Positions 15,096 through 37,356 of a DNA stretch of 64,000 nucleotides are shown here, piece by piece (the stretch's first letter is position 1; each line of letters starts with the position of its first letter). The position numbers and the translations under genes were made by a program. Origin of the DNA: Nitrosotalea sp. (lineage in GTDB: Archaea > Thermoproteota > Nitrososphaeria > Nitrososphaerales > Nitrosopumilaceae); contig JANWLA010000025.1 of assembly GCA_025451075.1 (NCBI GenBank), forward strand, positions 17,193 to 81,192, written 5' to 3'. Under the pieces are notes generated by a model. That model had not been told where the DNA came from, ran no database searches, and saw nothing but the letters and a program-made list of their open reading frames with translations.

Positions 15096-15854
15096 ATGGC
15101 AACTGGTTCTAAAATAGAATGGACTGAAGCAACATGGAATCCTACTACTGGTTGTACCAAGATATCTTCAGGATGCAAGAACTGCTATGCCGCTACTCTA
15201 TCAAAGCGTCTCAAGGCAATGGGTATGAAAAAATATAAAAATGGATTTGAATTTGCTGAACATTCTGAAGATATTGAATTACCACTTCAATGGAAAAAAC
15301 CAAGAAAAATCTTTGTAAATAGCATGTCTGACCTGTTTCACGAAAAATCTACAATGGAGTTTATTGAAAGATGTTTTGCAGTTATGATGACTGCTAAGTT
15401 ACACACATATCAAGTTCTTACCAAACGACCGAAAAAAATGGCCGAGTTTTCAAAATTATTCTATGCTGATTTCGGTCACACAATCCCAAGTCATATTTGG
15501 ATGGGTACCAGTATAGAAAATGAAGAAAATGTTTGGAGAATAGATGAATTAAGAAATGTAGAATGTGATATCAAATTCATAAGCTTTGAGCCGTTAATTG
15601 GCTCTGTGGGGAAAATAGATCTTGATGGAATTCATTGGGCCATAATTGGAGGGGAGAGTGGATTTGGATTTAGACCTGTTCAAAAGGAATGGATAATGGA
15701 AATAATACGACAATGTAAAAAACAAAACGTCAAAGTATTTTTCAAACAATGGGGAGGGACAAGACCAAAATCTGGTGGAAGGATCATAAATGGAAGAACT
15801 TACGATGAATATCCAAAAATAATAAAATCAATACCTGCTCTTTATGCTCGATAA
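15096..15854 (+). CDS. Phage Gp37/Gp68-like (DUF5131) three-Cys-motif protein
   Basis: KIEWTEATWNPTTGCTKISSGCKNCYA (Cx6Cx2C), VLTKRPKKM, GGESGFGFRPVQKEWI, FFKQWGG. Confidence 0.9.
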   Translation: MATGSKIEWTEATWNPTTGCTKISSGCKNCYAATLSKRLKAMGMKKYKNGFEFAEHSEDIELPLQWKKPRKIFVNSMSDLFHEKSTMEFIERCFAVMMTAKLHTYQVLTKRPKKMAEFSKLFYADFGHTIPSHIWMGTSIENEENVWRIDELRNVECDIKFISFEPLIGSVGKIDLDGIHWAIIGGESGFGFRPVQKEWIMEIIRQCKKQNVKVFFKQWGGTRPKSGGRIINGRTYDEYPKIIKSIPALYAR

Positions 15855-15857
15855 ACT

Positions 15858-16820
15858 TTGAGCAAAAAACCAAAAAATACATTTGATCCTTACAATTGGT
15901 CAAAAAAGAGAATCAATACTCTGATGGATAAAATATCTTCAATCAAAAATGATGGATTGTCTTTATCTCCCGGTCAAATATGGTCTTTGAAAAAATTACT
16001 TTTTCTTGATTACTATGCTAGAGCCTTTGTTACTATAATACGAAAAAATGATTTTCAAAATTGGTATTATGTGGATACACATGCTGGTACAGGAATGATA
16101 GGATTTGAAGAAACAGATTTGATAAAGGAAAGGTTTCCTGGTTCTCCATTGGTAGCAGCATTTCGTTCACCAGAGTTTTCTTTCACTCATTATTTTTTCT
16201 CAGACATTGAAGATAAATCAATTCATTCTCTGAAGGAAAGACTTCAATCTGTAAAACCTTTGACCGGAGCGATAGATTATACAGCTCAGGTGATGGATTT
16301 CAAAAAGACTGTAGAGTTTATAGAAACCAAGAAAAAATTTGGCAATGCTTTTCTAATTTTTGTAGATCCCACTGGATATTCTGAAATAAAATGGGACTTG
16401 ATGAAAAAACTACTCGCAATTAATACTGCTGATATTGTTTTTACATTTATGACTTATTCTATTGCTCTTAACAAAGAAAATACGATGGAAAACCTTGCTA
16501 CTGAACAATCATTTAATGAATTTTTTGGCAATCAAGATTGGAAAAAATGTGAAGATGGAAATGCTTTGGTTGAATTATATCGTCTACAAATGTCTCAATT
16601 TAAAAAATATGTTGAGGTAATTCCGGTCTTTCAAACTGGAGAGCGTAAACTGTATGATTTGATCATTGCAACTAATAGCAAGGGTGGAAGTAATGTTATG
16701 GAAGATACAAGAAGAATAATGGAGGTAACGACGACTGAATTATTCCGAGACGCATTAAAAGTTATTACTGGAAAAACTACAGATCTTACACAGTTTTTCG
16801 GAAATTCGAATCCTAGTTGA
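15858..16820 (+). CDS. tcmP: Three-Cys-motif partner protein TcmP
   Basis: SLKKLLFLDYYARAFVTI...WYYVDTHAGTGMIGFEET; directly downstream of the three-Cys protein; TTG start. Confidence 0.85.
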   Translation: MSKKPKNTFDPYNWSKKRINTLMDKISSIKNDGLSLSPGQIWSLKKLLFLDYYARAFVTIIRKNDFQNWYYVDTHAGTGMIGFEETDLIKERFPGSPLVAAFRSPEFSFTHYFFSDIEDKSIHSLKERLQSVKPLTGAIDYTAQVMDFKKTVEFIETKKKFGNAFLIFVDPTGYSEIKWDLMKKLLAINTADIVFTFMTYSIALNKENTMENLATEQSFNEFFGNQDWKKCEDGNALVELYRLQMSQFKKYVEVIPVFQTGERKLYDLIIATNSKGGSNVMEDTRRIMEVTTTELFRDALKVITGKTTDLTQFFGNSNPS

Positions 16821-17169
16821 CTGACGTTATTTATTCTAAAACAGGCCTGACAAAAAGAAGATTTTGACTCAATAATTTAGTATCCTGTACAAAAATGAGA
16901 TCTATGATCTAATTTTTAATCCCTTACTACAAAAGGAAATGGAGTATTCTATGAAGAAAGAAAATGTCGTAAATGGTCAAATCTCAAAACAATCTACGGT
17001 AGATCTAAAAAACCATGATCACAAGTCTCATCTCTAAACGTCCGTAATGCCAAAAAGTTCTCCATTTCTTGCCTCTATAACTATGCTACTGCTATTTTCT
17101 GGTTATAACATGCTCCTATATCCATAAATAGTATGATCGTGTTAGAACTTTCTAATTGTGGGAAATCAT

Positions 17170-17523
17170 ATGAAAGTATTACTAGTTGATGATAATGACA
17201 CCATTACCGAGATGATGTCAAAGTACCTATCCGCCAAGGGACACCAGTGCTCTGTTGCAAACGACGGTAGGACCGGTCTTGCACTGATCACAGAAAAAAA
17301 GTTTGATGTCGTACTGCTTGACTTGGCCATGCCAGACTTTACTGGAATAGATGTCATAGAAAGTCTGCACAAGAGCGGCAAGATAAAAGAAAACAAGATA
17401 ATCCTGTTTACTGCTTCCTCTGTTACCGACGGAGAAATCGATGCCTTGATAAAAAAAGGCGCACACTCTTGCCTGAAAAAACCCGTCAAGCTTGCAGTGC
17501 TCTTGCAGGTAATTGGGGGCTGA
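17170..17523 (+). CDS. Single-domain response regulator (CheY-like receiver)
   Basis: KVLLVDDND...VVLLDLAMPDFTGI...TASS...KKPVK; ORF track starts at GTG 17158. Confidence 0.85.
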   Translation: MKVLLVDDNDTITEMMSKYLSAKGHQCSVANDGRTGLALITEKKFDVVLLDLAMPDFTGIDVIESLHKSGKIKENKIILFTASSVTDGEIDALIKKGAHSCLKKPVKLAVLLQVIGG

Positions 17524-18554
17524 ATAAAATTACTGACAGCGACGGCAGCGATAAAAAACATGACGGATCATCAAGTGATGATACAAGAAAAATTAAAGAG
17601 CTAGAGCAAGAAAAAGTTCTCTTCAAGGAAATAAACGATCAAGTCTCTGCACAAGCAGACAATCTTGAAAAATCACGCCATGACTTGGAAATAAAGCTAG
17701 GCCAAGAATCACAAAAATCAAAGGAACTAGAGCAAGAAAAGATCATACTCGAAGAAATTGTTGACAGCGCTGAAAAAACTGGACTAACGGTACACAAGAA
17801 ATACTATTCTTCCATGGCAGCAGTTGCAATTGCAGTCTCGCTTGGGTTTGTGGGGTATACATATTATGAAAATCAAGTAATTTCGCATACCGTACTTCCA
17901 ATACAGCAAAACTACAACTCTAACTATCTGATACAAAACCTGCAGGGTGATACCGTTAACACCTGGGTTGCATGGAATATAGCAAATGGGAGAATAATAC
18001 ATATTCATGTTACTAATACCGCAAATGTTCCACAGAATCTCATTGATGCAATAAAAAATGCAATTTTATCCACCCAGACTGTAACCATTGATGACTCTCT
18101 TACAGGAAAGGGACCAAAGGGCTCTTCTTCTGTATATTATGTTGGCTGGGAGGGTGCAGTAGAAAATGCATCAGCAGCACCAACAAAAAGGTACATACCG
18201 CAACAGTTTGACATCAATGGTTCCCCTGATGGAGTCGGAGATATAGAAATAATTCTTACAAATGACATCAACCCTGACGGATATTCAGGATACACAAGAT
18301 CAATTGTAGATGGAAATGAAATCCTAAAATCTAAAATAACAATATTCAAGGTAAACACGCTTGACCCTGACAGGCTGTCATCAATCATACGACACGAGTT
18401 TGGACATGCAATGGGACTTGGACATTCTACTGCTACAGAAGACCTGATGAGCCCAATGCTGCCAGATTACCCGTACATTTCAAGTTGTGATGTTGACACC
18501 CTGAAGGGCTTGTACAATGGAGACCAAAACAGCAAGGTTGTGTGCCAAAAATAA
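17469..18554 (+). CDS. Coiled-coil + single-TM + extracytoplasmic matrixin-like metalloprotease
   Basis: HEFGHAMGLGH zincin motif with downstream LMSPML Met turn; TM MAAVAIAVSLGFVGYTYY; N-terminal coiled coil. Start uncertain (TTG 17469, CTG 17520, or -1 frameshift from the receiver gene). Confidence 0.8.
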   Translation: MPEKTRQACSALAGNWGLNKITDSDGSDKKHDGSSSDDTRKIKELEQEKVLFKEINDQVSAQADNLEKSRHDLEIKLGQESQKSKELEQEKIILEEIVDSAEKTGLTVHKKYYSSMAAVAIAVSLGFVGYTYYENQVISHTVLPIQQNYNSNYLIQNLQGDTVNTWVAWNIANGRIIHIHVTNTANVPQNLIDAIKNAILSTQTVTIDDSLTGKGPKGSSSVYYVGWEGAVENASAAPTKRYIPQQFDINGSPDGVGDIEIILTNDINPDGYSGYTRSIVDGNEILKSKITIFKVNTLDPDRLSSIIRHEFGHAMGLGHSTATEDLMSPMLPDYPYISSCDVDTLKGLYNGDQNSKVVCQK

Positions 18555-18581
18555 GCAACTTTACCATCCTGGAGCATATTC

Positions 18582-20000
18582 ATGTTTAAGAAAACAACCC
18601 ACACAAAACTGATTGTCATAGCTTCCCTTTTGCCAATCATATCGTTTGGAACAGTTGGCGTTATTTCATACTATGAGATAAACAGCTTTATCGACGATGA
18701 AAATTGGGTCAGGCACACTCACCAAGTCATTGAACAGTCAGATGCAATAGAAAAAACCATGTTGGATATTGAGACTGGCTCAAGAGGATATGCAATAACT
18801 GGCAACCCAATATCTTTAGCACCGTACACTTCAGGCATATCACAAATTACATCACAGCTTGATTCAATTCGCACACTGACTACAGACAATCCAATACAGC
18901 AGGCAAACATTCAAAAATTAATTCCTCTAGTTGAAGAAAAAATATCATTTAGCAACAAGACAATTGCTTTGCAAAATAATACCGGTAAAGATGCCGGAGT
19001 ACAAAATGTTGCAACACTTGAAGGCACGCGCTTGATGGACAACATACGACAGGTAATAGGTGACATGAAAAATGAAGAAAATACTTTACTAGAACAAAGA
19101 GCAAGTGTATCTCAGGCGTCTGCCCAAAATACATCCAATACAATAATTGCAGGAACTGCAATTGCAATCCTGATTACCATGATCTCTACCATCGCAATAT
19201 ACAAAAAGATGCAGCAAAGAGACCAGATTGAAAAGGTAAACATCGAACTACACTTTGAAACAGAAAAGCTAAAGGAGCGAGATAATGCCAAGGCAGAACT
19301 TTCTGCAATGGTATCACACGAGCTAAAGACGCCGCTTGTTACAATAAGTGGATATGCAGAAATGCTCAAAGACGAAGCGGTGCTTGGGGCGCTAAACAAG
19401 GAGCAAATACATGCAGTGGATACAATTAGTTCCCAGACAGTCAAGCTTGAGAGGCTCATCAGTGATATAATGGACGCACAAAAGATGGACCTTAAAAAAA
19501 TGAAGTTCAACAAGAGGGACTTTGCAATTGATGACCTCATGGATGAGCAAATACAGATCCACTCAAAATTGATGGATGAAAAAAAGGTGCGTTTTACAAA
19601 CTCTACAAAGGAAAAATTGAAAATAAAAAGCGACCCTGACAGGCTAAACCAGGTGTTTGCAAATCTTATCAAAAACGCAGTCGACTTTGTACCTCCAAGT
19701 GGTGGTACAATAGAAATCAACGCTGCAAGAAAGAACGGGGATGTTGTGTTTTATGTCAAGGACAATGGCAACGGAATCCCCCAAGAAAAGCAAGATGGAC
19801 TGTTCAAGAAATTTTACCAGATAGACACGTCTTTGAAAAGAAGCCATGGTGGAACTGGCCTTGGCCTTGTAATCTGCAAGGGAATAGTGGAGGCTTTGGG
19901 GGGAACCATCTGGCTTGAAAGCCAGGTTGGTAAAGGCACCACCTTTTGGTTTAGAATTCCAAACAATGGATCTGCAAACCATGATCTAACCGAGGTGTGA
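18582..20000 (+). CDS. CHASE3-domain sensor histidine kinase
   Basis: Two TMs flanking DIETGSRGYAITGN (CHASE3); SHELKTPLVTISGYAE; NLIKNAVDF; GNGIPQEKQDGLF; GGTGLGLVICKGIVEALGG. Confidence 0.9.
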   Translation: MFKKTTHTKLIVIASLLPIISFGTVGVISYYEINSFIDDENWVRHTHQVIEQSDAIEKTMLDIETGSRGYAITGNPISLAPYTSGISQITSQLDSIRTLTTDNPIQQANIQKLIPLVEEKISFSNKTIALQNNTGKDAGVQNVATLEGTRLMDNIRQVIGDMKNEENTLLEQRASVSQASAQNTSNTIIAGTAIAILITMISTIAIYKKMQQRDQIEKVNIELHFETEKLKERDNAKAELSAMVSHELKTPLVTISGYAEMLKDEAVLGALNKEQIHAVDTISSQTVKLERLISDIMDAQKMDLKKMKFNKRDFAIDDLMDEQIQIHSKLMDEKKVRFTNSTKEKLKIKSDPDRLNQVFANLIKNAVDFVPPSGGTIEINAARKNGDVVFYVKDNGNGIPQEKQDGLFKKFYQIDTSLKRSHGGTGLGLVICKGIVEALGGTIWLESQVGKGTTFWFRIPNNGSANHDLTEV

Positions 20001-20124
20001 TGCCATCAAGAAGAGTCTTGGTACTGCAAAAAAACAAAAAAAGAATAAAAAACTAGATGAAGAAATATCCCACAGACTAAATGAATTAGAACAGCAGACA
20101 ATAATTTTATCCGGAACAAACAAG

Positions 20125-21372
20125 TTGCTTGAAGAAATGATGAATGATTTTGAGGTGGAAAGCACACAGCAACTCAAAAATGAGATTCACAAAGTCAGAG
20201 TAATGGAACAAAGATATCATAGCTTGTATGATGGCTCGCCCATATTGTTTCGTACCATTGATCTAAAGGGAATAATAATGGATTGCAATGTGTTCTATGC
20301 AGACAGCCTTGGATATGCAAAAAAAGAGATAATCGGAAAATCCATTTTTGATCATACTGCAAAACAAAGCATTGCCACATTAAAGAAATCTTTTCAACAA
20401 TGGAAAAAAATAGGCATTGTCAAAGGCAAGGAGATTTGGATGCAACGAAAAAATGGCACAACATTTCCTACACTGCTCAGTGCAACTAATTTATTTGATA
20501 ATGAAGGTAAGCGAATTGGCAGTAATACTGCACTACGAGATATAACGGAAATCCATGAGGCAAGAAAGAAGCTCAAAGCACATGAATCACAAATGAAAGA
20601 ACAGCTAGTCCAGCTAAAAAAACTAGGTGCACTCAAAGATGATTTTTTGACAATGATAACCCATGAGCTAAAAACACCGCTTGTTCCAATAATGAGTTAT
20701 GTGGATATCATGTTGTCAGAAACATTTGGAGCATTAAATGAAGAACAAAAAAAGAGGCTTGAGATAATCCGAACCAGCACTCGATCGCTTTTAAAATTAA
20801 TTTCTGATATTTTAGATAGTCAAAAAATTGAACTCGGTCAGCTGGTATTGAACAAAGATGTGTATGACTTGGGTACCATAATACGTGATGTTGTTGACAA
20901 GATAAAACCTGATGCAGACAAGAACAATATTGAATTGACTGTTGATTTAAAAAAACAAGTTATGGTATTATGCGATGATTCTAGGATGGACCAAGTCTTA
21001 TCAAACTTGATCCTCAACAGCCTGGATTTTTGTCCAAAACAAAATGGGAAAATAAGCCTAAGGCTAGACTCTAAAGGCAATGACGCGCATATTGTTGTAA
21101 AAGACAATGGCATTGGCATAGTAAAGAAAAGCATTGGCAAAATCTTTGTAAAATTCTACCAAGTAGACGCCAGACTGACTAGGGAACATGGAGGCACAGG
21201 GATGGGACTGGCAGTATGCAAAGGGATAGTGGAAGGGCATGGGGGAAAAATATGGGCAGAGTCTGAAGGGCGCGGAAAAGGTGTGGAAATTCATGTCTTG
21301 TTACCTCTGGCACACAAGTCCTATATCTTTACACCAAAGGACAAGCCAGATGGATCTGTATCTGAAAAATAA
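20125..21372 (+). CDS. PAS-domain histidine kinase
   Basis: PAS RYHSLYDGSPILFRTIDLKGIIMDCN...; THELKTPLVPIMSY; GGTGMGLAVCKGIVEGHGGKIW. TTG start; frame is open further upstream. Confidence 0.9.
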   Translation: MLEEMMNDFEVESTQQLKNEIHKVRVMEQRYHSLYDGSPILFRTIDLKGIIMDCNVFYADSLGYAKKEIIGKSIFDHTAKQSIATLKKSFQQWKKIGIVKGKEIWMQRKNGTTFPTLLSATNLFDNEGKRIGSNTALRDITEIHEARKKLKAHESQMKEQLVQLKKLGALKDDFLTMITHELKTPLVPIMSYVDIMLSETFGALNEEQKKRLEIIRTSTRSLLKLISDILDSQKIELGQLVLNKDVYDLGTIIRDVVDKIKPDADKNNIELTVDLKKQVMVLCDDSRMDQVLSNLILNSLDFCPKQNGKISLRLDSKGNDAHIVVKDNGIGIVKKSIGKIFVKFYQVDARLTREHGGTGMGLAVCKGIVEGHGGKIWAESEGRGKGVEIHVLLPLAHKSYIFTPKDKPDGSVSEK

Positions 21373-21521: not shown

Positions 21522-21752
21522 TTGAAACTACATACAAAGTATTTTCAAGAAAAATTAGGCAAGCTCCCTGCTGAGCAGCTGTGGGTTATAATTGAAGAGT
21601 TGATAGAGCCACATCCTAACTCATTTGACAAAAAATCCATGAAGTACGATGAGGTGCTTGAGCTTGCAGTTGTGCTAAAGTCATCTGATGAGATATTCAA
21701 GAACCTAGAGCAGATTGCCATCATGAAAAACGAACTTGATAATATAAAATAA
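21522..21752 (+). CDS. Small hypothetical protein
   Basis: 76-aa ORF with helical character, TTG start. Confidence 0.45.
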   Translation: MKLHTKYFQEKLGKLPAEQLWVIIEELIEPHPNSFDKKSMKYDEVLELAVVLKSSDEIFKNLEQIAIMKNELDNIK

Positions 21753-35965: not shown

Positions 35966-36940
35966 TTAGGTTGATTTTTGTGGACCACATGCTACGTCAC
36001 TTAGATCTTTGCCGTCGTAAAGATCCTTTACTGCATTCATGTCACAGTCTGAAACAAATGGAAAGTTTGTCTCAATGATATAGTGCATCAAGTCTTCTTG
36101 GTCACTTGAATGTCCAAGTCCTAATGCATGACCGAATTCATGTCTTACTATGGCACCGAGTCGATCTGGTGACAAGTTGCCAACATCGTATATTGTTATT
36201 GCTGCTTTTAGCGTCTCTTGGTTGTCAGTAATGGATTTTGTATATCCTGAATATCCATCTGGATTCTCAAGGCTTGACAAAATTATTGTTATGTCTCCTT
36301 CTTCAGATGGAGACTGCATTATGTTGAATTTGGTTGGAATGTGAAACTTTGTCTTGTCATTTTGCATGTTATCAATTGCACCCTGCCATCCCTTGTAGTA
36401 TACTGAAACAGTACCAACAGGTCCTCTATCCAGCAAAGAGTTGTCTATCTTTACAGACTCTTCTGAGAGTATGGCCTCTTTTATGGCGTCAATTTTTTCT
36501 TTTGAAACCTTGTCTGCATTTAATATGTTGACGTTGAGGACCTGATTGTCCACAATATGCCAAGGCTTCCATGTATCCACCGTATTGCCTTGCAGGTTTT
36601 GTATTAGATACTGTGTCTTAAGTGGACTGTTGTTAGAGTTGGAAAATGATTGTAAATCACTTGGCACATATGAAATAAAGATAAACATTGCAAGGCCAAG
36701 CGCTGCCACTATTGTAACATTTCGCAAAATCTTGTTTTTGCGCGGTTCGCTTTTCATTAATCCAGTTAAAACTTTCTTGTCTTCACGCAACTCACCAATT
36801 ATTTTTTCCTTCTCTGATATGTCATGCTCAAGATGTGTTGTACCTGTCTCCATCTCATCCAGGCGTTTCTTTAGTTCCAGATTCATCTCTTTTAGAAGAG
36901 TTTTTTGAGATACTAGATCATCAAACAGCTCTTGTTTCAT
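35966..36940 (-). CDS. Coiled-coil + single-TM + extracytoplasmic matrixin-like metalloprotease (paralog of 17469..18554)
   Basis: HEFGHALGLGH; YLIQNLQGNTVDTW, PDGYSGYTKSI shared with paralog; ATGA overlap with receiver gene. Confidence 0.85.
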   Translation of the reverse strand: MKQELFDDLVSQKTLLKEMNLELKKRLDEMETGTTHLEHDISEKEKIIGELREDKKVLTGLMKSEPRKNKILRNVTIVAALGLAMFIFISYVPSDLQSFSNSNNSPLKTQYLIQNLQGNTVDTWKPWHIVDNQVLNVNILNADKVSKEKIDAIKEAILSEESVKIDNSLLDRGPVGTVSVYYKGWQGAIDNMQNDKTKFHIPTKFNIMQSPSEEGDITIILSSLENPDGYSGYTKSITDNQETLKAAITIYDVGNLSPDRLGAIVRHEFGHALGLGHSSDQEDLMHYIIETNFPFVSDCDMNAVKDLYDGKDLSDVACGPQKST

Positions 36941-37356
36941 ATGGGTACCGCCTTTAATGTGGATAATCTGTCCAGTATGCGCATTATTTCGTTAATATCA
37001 TAAGGCTTGTAAATTATGGCAGATGCATCAAGGGCAATCAACTTGTCATGTGTGCTAACTGTCAAGTCTGCTGTAACCATTATTACGATGACATCAGACC
37101 TGATTTCCTTGATTTTCTCTAATGCGTATATTCCATCATGCCCTTCCATCATTACATCTAAAAATACCGAATCTGGCCTGAGTTTTTTGTACAGCTCTAC
37201 TGCCTCCAATCCATCATATCCTCTTCCAATCACTTTGATTCCTTTAATCTGCAAAAAATCACACAGGACCGATACTGTATCCCTGTCATCATCAATTACT
37301 ATAGTTGTAATAGAATTGTCATTACTAGTTGAGTGAGAATGAGAAAACGGTTTCAT
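36937..37356 (-). CDS. Single-domain response regulator
   Basis: TIVIDDDRDT...SVFLDVMMEGHDGIYAL...VTAD...IYKPY. Confidence 0.9.
   Translation of the reverse strand: MKPFSHSHSTSNDNSITTIVIDDDRDTVSVLCDFLQIKGIKVIGRGYDGLEAVELYKKLRPDSVFLDVMMEGHDGIYALEKIKEIRSDVIVIMVTADLTVSTHDKLIALDASAIIYKPYDINEIMRILDRLSTLKAVPI

Follow-up and report, generated by a model that had tools for sequence, protein, structure and literature searches.

A receiver gene beside a membrane protease gene

Can a receiver inside an archaeal cell switch a protein-cutting enzyme on the cell surface directly, by contact and not through transcription? Stand-alone receivers make up the majority of archaeal response regulators, and a 2018 census concluded that protein-protein contacts must be their usual output (PMC5847659). 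The question is raised by a locus at 17158-21372 (+) in a stretch of 64,000 nucleotides of Nitrosotalea sp. (assembly GCA_025451075.1, contig JANWLA010000025.1), which we call the window. Sequence reading and a Pfam scan confirmed the order of its four genes, which encode a receiver (REC), a matrixin-like (M10) protein with a coiled coil and one transmembrane (TM) segment, a CHASE3 kinase and a PAS kinase. We read the whole module as an inside-out two-component effector that would control a surface protease, with a probability of roughly 0.56. The wiring of receiver to protease, as seen in architecture, conserved pairing and natural fusions, is well supported, and the finding is a family-wide module, not a single odd locus. 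The parts of the locus are as follows.

17158..17523, + strand: stand-alone receiver (REC), PF00072, E 1.3e-22
17515..17519, + strand: GGGGG resembling a Shine-Dalgarno (SD) sequence, within the final codons of the receiver; the ATT proposed as protease start follows 9 nt later
17529..18554, + strand: coiled coil, one TM segment and matrixin (M10) protease, PF00413, E 4.7e-7, AlphaFold2 (AF2) model with a predicted local distance difference test score (pLDDT) of 82
17580..17790, + strand: cytoplasmic coiled-coil region (approximate), within the continuous AF2 helix of residues 18-122
17812..17874, + strand: single TM segment (approximate), orthologue hydropathy 1.8-2.9 at the same place
18393..18425, + strand: zinc motif HEFGHAMGLGH of the ectodomain, fitting HExxHxxGxxH
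18582..20000, + strand: CHASE3 sensor histidine kinase, with CHASE3 (E 9e-41), HisKA and HATPase_c
20005..21372, + strand: PAS histidine kinase with proposed ATC start, with PAS, HisKA and HATPase_c

The genes are tightly spaced: the receiver stop lies inside the protease frame, 27 bp separate the protease from the CHASE3 kinase, and the stop of the latter lies inside the PAS kinase frame. The initial annotation had described four closely packed elements on one strand, and both the Pfam matches and the coordinates bear this out. For the receiver, a start at ATG 17170 is more likely than one at 17158. It has the domain and the catalytic residues of a two-component receiver (PF00072) and is predicted to accept phosphate.

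A predicted type II membrane protease with a matrixin fold

The topology of the protease was examined by hydropathy and structure prediction. With a 19-residue Kyte-Doolittle span and a cut-off of 1.5, the TM segment of the window copy is weak and falls under the cut-off, and most orthologues score 1.8-2.9. The AF2 model shows one continuous helix followed by the ectodomain, and KKYY precedes the TM segment, in agreement with the positive-inside rule. Topology and fold thus fit a predicted surface protease anchored as a type II membrane protein. The layout first proposed, with a coiled coil, one TM segment and an extracytoplasmic matrixin domain, is upheld by the hydropathy of the orthologues, the AF2 helix and the fold of the ectodomain, which resembles that of matrix metalloproteinases (MMPs).

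Compared with the PDB, the ectodomain profile matched an MMP catalytic domain (2jsd, E 7.6e-9), and the first Foldseek matches of the ectodomain model were MMP-7, MMP-1 and MMP-13 (E ~1e-5, target TM-score ~0.6). With HEFGHAMGLGH, a Met-turn (DLM), a PF00413 match above the cut-off and a modelled matrixin catalytic fold, the protein falls within the matrixins (peptidase family M10), and proteolytic activity is predicted. The cysteine-switch propeptide (PRCGxPD) of animal-type MMPs was not found in the translated window proteases. H292, E293 and G299 are invariant in A1, and the zinc triad is intact in 83/92 family members scored.

Receivers and proteases are paired across the family

The search covered 400 genomes from the order and 120 from the class, and strong full-length matches to the protease family came only from Nitrosopumilaceae (GTDB); the named records among them belong to Nitrosotalea, Nitrosarchaeum, Nitrosotenuis, Nitrosopumilus and unclassified Thaumarchaeota. 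A neighbour census was then based on 96 distinct members, with a receiver gene counted as linked if it lay within 160 bp or was fused. Such a receiver was adjacent or fused in 71 of the 96: 45 were directly upstream on the same strand, 17 convergent, 6 downstream, 1 divergent and 2 fused, and 25 members had none adjacent. Among control genes of the same stretches, a receiver stood directly upstream in 6/712 and was adjacent in any orientation in 43/712. The two genomes in which receivers were counted hold 17 each, and in each of them all three full-length family proteases (3/3) adjoin one. Chance adjacency was rejected on these numbers (17 receivers per genome; 71/96 linked versus 43/712 controls). 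The initial annotation had named a lack of conserved synteny in relatives as grounds for dropping its proposal; the pairing is instead conserved. No receiver adjoins the secreted M10 proteins L067-L069, which are encoded in the same genomes.

The acidic Asp pair, the phospho-Asp and the Lys are present in all protease-adjacent receivers aligned (45/45), and the Thr/Ser site in 34/45. In a receiver tree, the protease-linked receivers fell into at least four lineages.

Upstream type A/DHp: 34 rows, support 98/97
Upstream type B: 10 rows, support 100/96
Convergent plus fused: support 100/98
Downstream with NitrOD5: support 100/100

Since the linked receivers belong to four separate lineages, the link to the protease arose several times, and this repeated recruitment is a stronger argument than synteny by descent. 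Distances among the receivers and among the proteases correlate (r 0.68; permutation maximum 0.21). A receiver protein also follows the protease gene in L127, L129, L139, L143 and L146, which ties a further receiver type to the family; that of L127 combines REC with a NitrOD5-like part.

Adjacency of this kind may mirror co-regulation, and the signalling genes could simply be co-transcribed while receiver and protease never touch. We give this explanation little probability, as it is opposed by the natural fusions, by recruitment from four receiver lineages and by layouts that are both convergent and tandem.

Natural fusions and DHp stalks

In L060 and L061, receiver, TM segment and M10 domain form a single polypeptide (PF00072 plus PF00413), so that these two are response regulators with an output domain on one chain; the window has separate genes. 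In a further 15 census members a HisKA (DHp) domain is fused to TM-M10, usually with a receiver gene directly upstream, and the phospho-His of the H-box is retained in 14/15 of them. L037, L112, L118 and L163 combine HisKA and M10 without HATPase. HATPase_c was absent from all M10 proteins checked by Pfam, and the DHp-TM-M10 relatives therefore lack the combination of HisKA and HATPase_c that defines a histidine kinase. The DHp replaces or joins the N-terminal coiled coil of the protease; the protease tree shows several exchanges between the two types of N-terminus, and the DHp fusion L037 nests within the clade of the first window protease. Operons of other genera usually run kinase, receiver, DHp-TM-M10. 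L108 has a small stand-alone DHp protein between the receiver and the protease, and L125 and L134 have one ahead of the protease. More broadly, small separate DHp-like proteins of ~107-141 aa, without a kinase ATPase, are found near the protease genes of L108, L111, L121, L125, L131 and L134. In L150 the same M10 ectodomain is joined to a dCache domain, and in L153 and L155 it follows an N-terminal region with several TM segments.

Receivers are known to dock on the DHp domains of kinases. In the inside-out mechanism that we favour, a histidine kinase, here probably the adjacent CHASE3 kinase, the PAS kinase or both, would phosphorylate the stand-alone receiver. The receiver would then dock on the cytoplasmic helical stalk of the type II membrane protease, a coiled coil here and a four-helix DHp domain in relatives, in the manner of response regulators binding to the DHp domains of kinases. 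The resulting change would travel from the stalk along the single TM helix of what is probably a dimer and turn the matrixin ectodomain on or off; a signal may thereby lead to the cutting of a surface protein. DHp and coiled coil replace each other at the cytoplasmic end of a TM segment whose outer end carries an enzyme, and from this we infer that phosphorylation-controlled docking of the receiver alters stalk and ectodomain. The initial annotation had suggested the cytoplasmic coiled coil as the point at which the receiver acts. This idea is strengthened because relatives replace or join the coiled coil with a DHp, the standard docking partner of receivers; the mechanism is thus partly supported, and appears plausible and better founded than before on sequence and model evidence.

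The layout of the DHp fusions equals that of a kinase with an ectodomain sensor, and signalling might run from the outside in: the M10 ectodomain would sense a peptide or substrate, and the DHp or coiled coil would act as a phosphatase or phosphotransfer partner of a receiver whose target lies elsewhere. The phospho-His kept in 14/15 DHp fusions fits this arrangement, as does the loss of zinc ligands in some clade-C and both REC-fused members. We consider it unlikely, since all clade A and B members as well as the DHp fusions retain the catalytic Glu and the zinc His, HATPase_c is missing as described above, and M10, joined to the dCache sensor of L150, has the place expected of an output. A role of the ectodomain as mere sensor is disfavoured by the conserved catalytic residues.

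The CHASE3 kinase is the next downstream gene in nearly all clade-A orthologous loci (only fragments remain in L033 and L040), which would suit a feedback in which the protease trims the ectodomain of this kinase and the receiver is its ordinary output. Such receptor shedding is quite improbable: no CHASE3 kinase adjoins the pairs of clades B and C, and the fusion of REC or DHp to the protease would be left unexplained.

Several points weigh against inside-out control. No receiver is adjacent in 25/96 members, the adjacency counts, taken from related genomes, lack independence, and the correlation of receiver and protease distances partly mirrors plain co-inheritance. Moreover, the losses of zinc ligands fall mostly in the convergent/fused branch: eight clade-C or fused members lack one or two of them (L050, L054-L058 and both REC fusions, L060 and L061), and ectodomains of the convergent/fused branch may be pseudoproteases. 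The AF2 model of a DHp version (A3) was poor (pLDDT 57) and not usable for a complex of receiver and stalk.

Non-AUG starts in the operon

The protease N-terminus had been placed at TTG 17469, which was not borne out; the likely start is ATT 17529. The 13 clade-A protease orthologues have no ATG, GTG or TTG near the N-terminus, except for GTG in two and TTG in one, and the aligned start column, near-cognate in 13/13, holds ATT (7), CTG (4), ATC (1) or TTG (1). An SD-like G-rich stretch lies in the last receiver codons, 7-11 nt before this column, in 13/13. The N-terminal coiled coil (residues 20-90) showed a nonsynonymous rate (dN) of 0.20 and a synonymous rate (dS) of 1.45 compared with L098; being under purifying selection ahead of any canonical start, it is translated. 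The simplest reading of these alignments would be coupled non-AUG (ATT) initiation at 17529. Similarly, the PAS kinase has an ATC start with the SD sequence GAGGTG at 19992-19997, and both GAGGTG and ATC AAG AA are common to L098. Two genes of the operon thus apparently start on AUU or AUC with SD-like sequences in the upstream gene (17515-17531 and 19992-20007).

Readthrough of the stop codon, or a frameshift, might also yield receiver and protease as a single chain, as could be suspected from frames that are continuous across a single stop in 10/13 clade-A orthologues and from the true fusion in L060 and L061. The stop varies (TGA, TAA, TAG) and three orthologues, that of the window among them, have a different frame, while the SD-like stretch and the near-cognate start column are conserved instead; such a product has a very small probability. 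As the main mode, it was rejected on the variation of stop codon and frame.

Taken together with the inside-out mechanism, a wider reading can be put forward tentatively, at somewhat less than even odds: a widespread class of reversed histidine-kinase-like proteins, in which a stalk, either DHp or coiled coil, is the target of receivers and drives an extracellular enzyme through the membrane. Two-component signalling would then have surface proteolysis as a direct output, and coupled non-AUG initiation would set the dose in the clade of the window.

A second pair and neighbouring genes

The window holds a second receiver/protease pair at 37356-35966 (-), which the initial annotation had overlooked.

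36937..37356, - strand: second receiver, from a different receiver lineage, by hidden Markov model match to REC; tree clade upB, 100/96
35966..36940, - strand: second coiled coil, TM segment and M10 protease, with an ATGA overlap with its receiver

The two proteases are 42% identical over 317 aa and 46% over the ectodomain; the two receivers share a mere 22%. Around the first operon, a 76-aa open reading frame (ORF) without a Pfam match follows at 21522-21752 (+) and is retained downstream at several orthologous loci, and at 15096-16820 (+) a DUF5131 gene is directly followed by a 320-aa ORF without a Pfam match.

Comparison with known systems

No described receiver-metalloprotease system was found in the open-access literature searched, subscription papers lying outside the search. 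RssB and CpdR, which work with ClpXP, are likewise receiver proteins that govern proteolysis by protein contact, but the protease there is a cytosolic AAA+ enzyme, the receiver protein is an adaptor and no membrane is crossed. ADAM17-iRhom and the membrane-type MMPs are membrane-anchored metzincins under cytosolic control; they are eukaryotic type I membrane proteins without two-component parts, and control passes through phosphorylation of the iRhom tail. If the inside-out mechanism holds, two-component signalling in one of the most abundant archaeal groups has a direct inside-to-outside output that bypasses transcription. Adjacency and fusion suggest that ammonia-oxidising archaea switch a surface protein-cutting enzyme directly from the cell interior, and the natural fusions and DHp versions render the module directly testable.

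In the LapD-LapG system of Pseudomonas, a membrane protein also lets a cytoplasmic state control how a surface protein is proteolysed outside the cytoplasm, but the input of LapD is cyclic di-GMP (c-di-GMP), LapG is a separate, soluble, sequestered cysteine protease, and the domains are unrelated to those of the REC-M10 module (PMC3032545). Neither the c-di-GMP receptor domains of LapD nor the protease domain of LapG was found by Pfam in the four window proteins. The kinases GacS and RetS provide a precedent for binding at a cytoplasmic DHp/kinase domain that alters an extracytoplasmic domain across the membrane; there, both partners are kinases, with a sensor in place of an enzyme as ectodomain (PMC12148439). 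The census of archaeal response regulators lists stand-alone receivers, REC-enzyme proteins and REC-HisKA proteins without HATPase, and the words protease, peptidase and M10 are absent from its main text (PMC5847659). The enzymes that it names as outputs are KaiC-like, BcsA-like, thioredoxin reductase and PPDK (PMC5847659). The module described here offers a concrete, conserved candidate target for stand-alone archaeal receivers, a membrane protease with a docking stalk.

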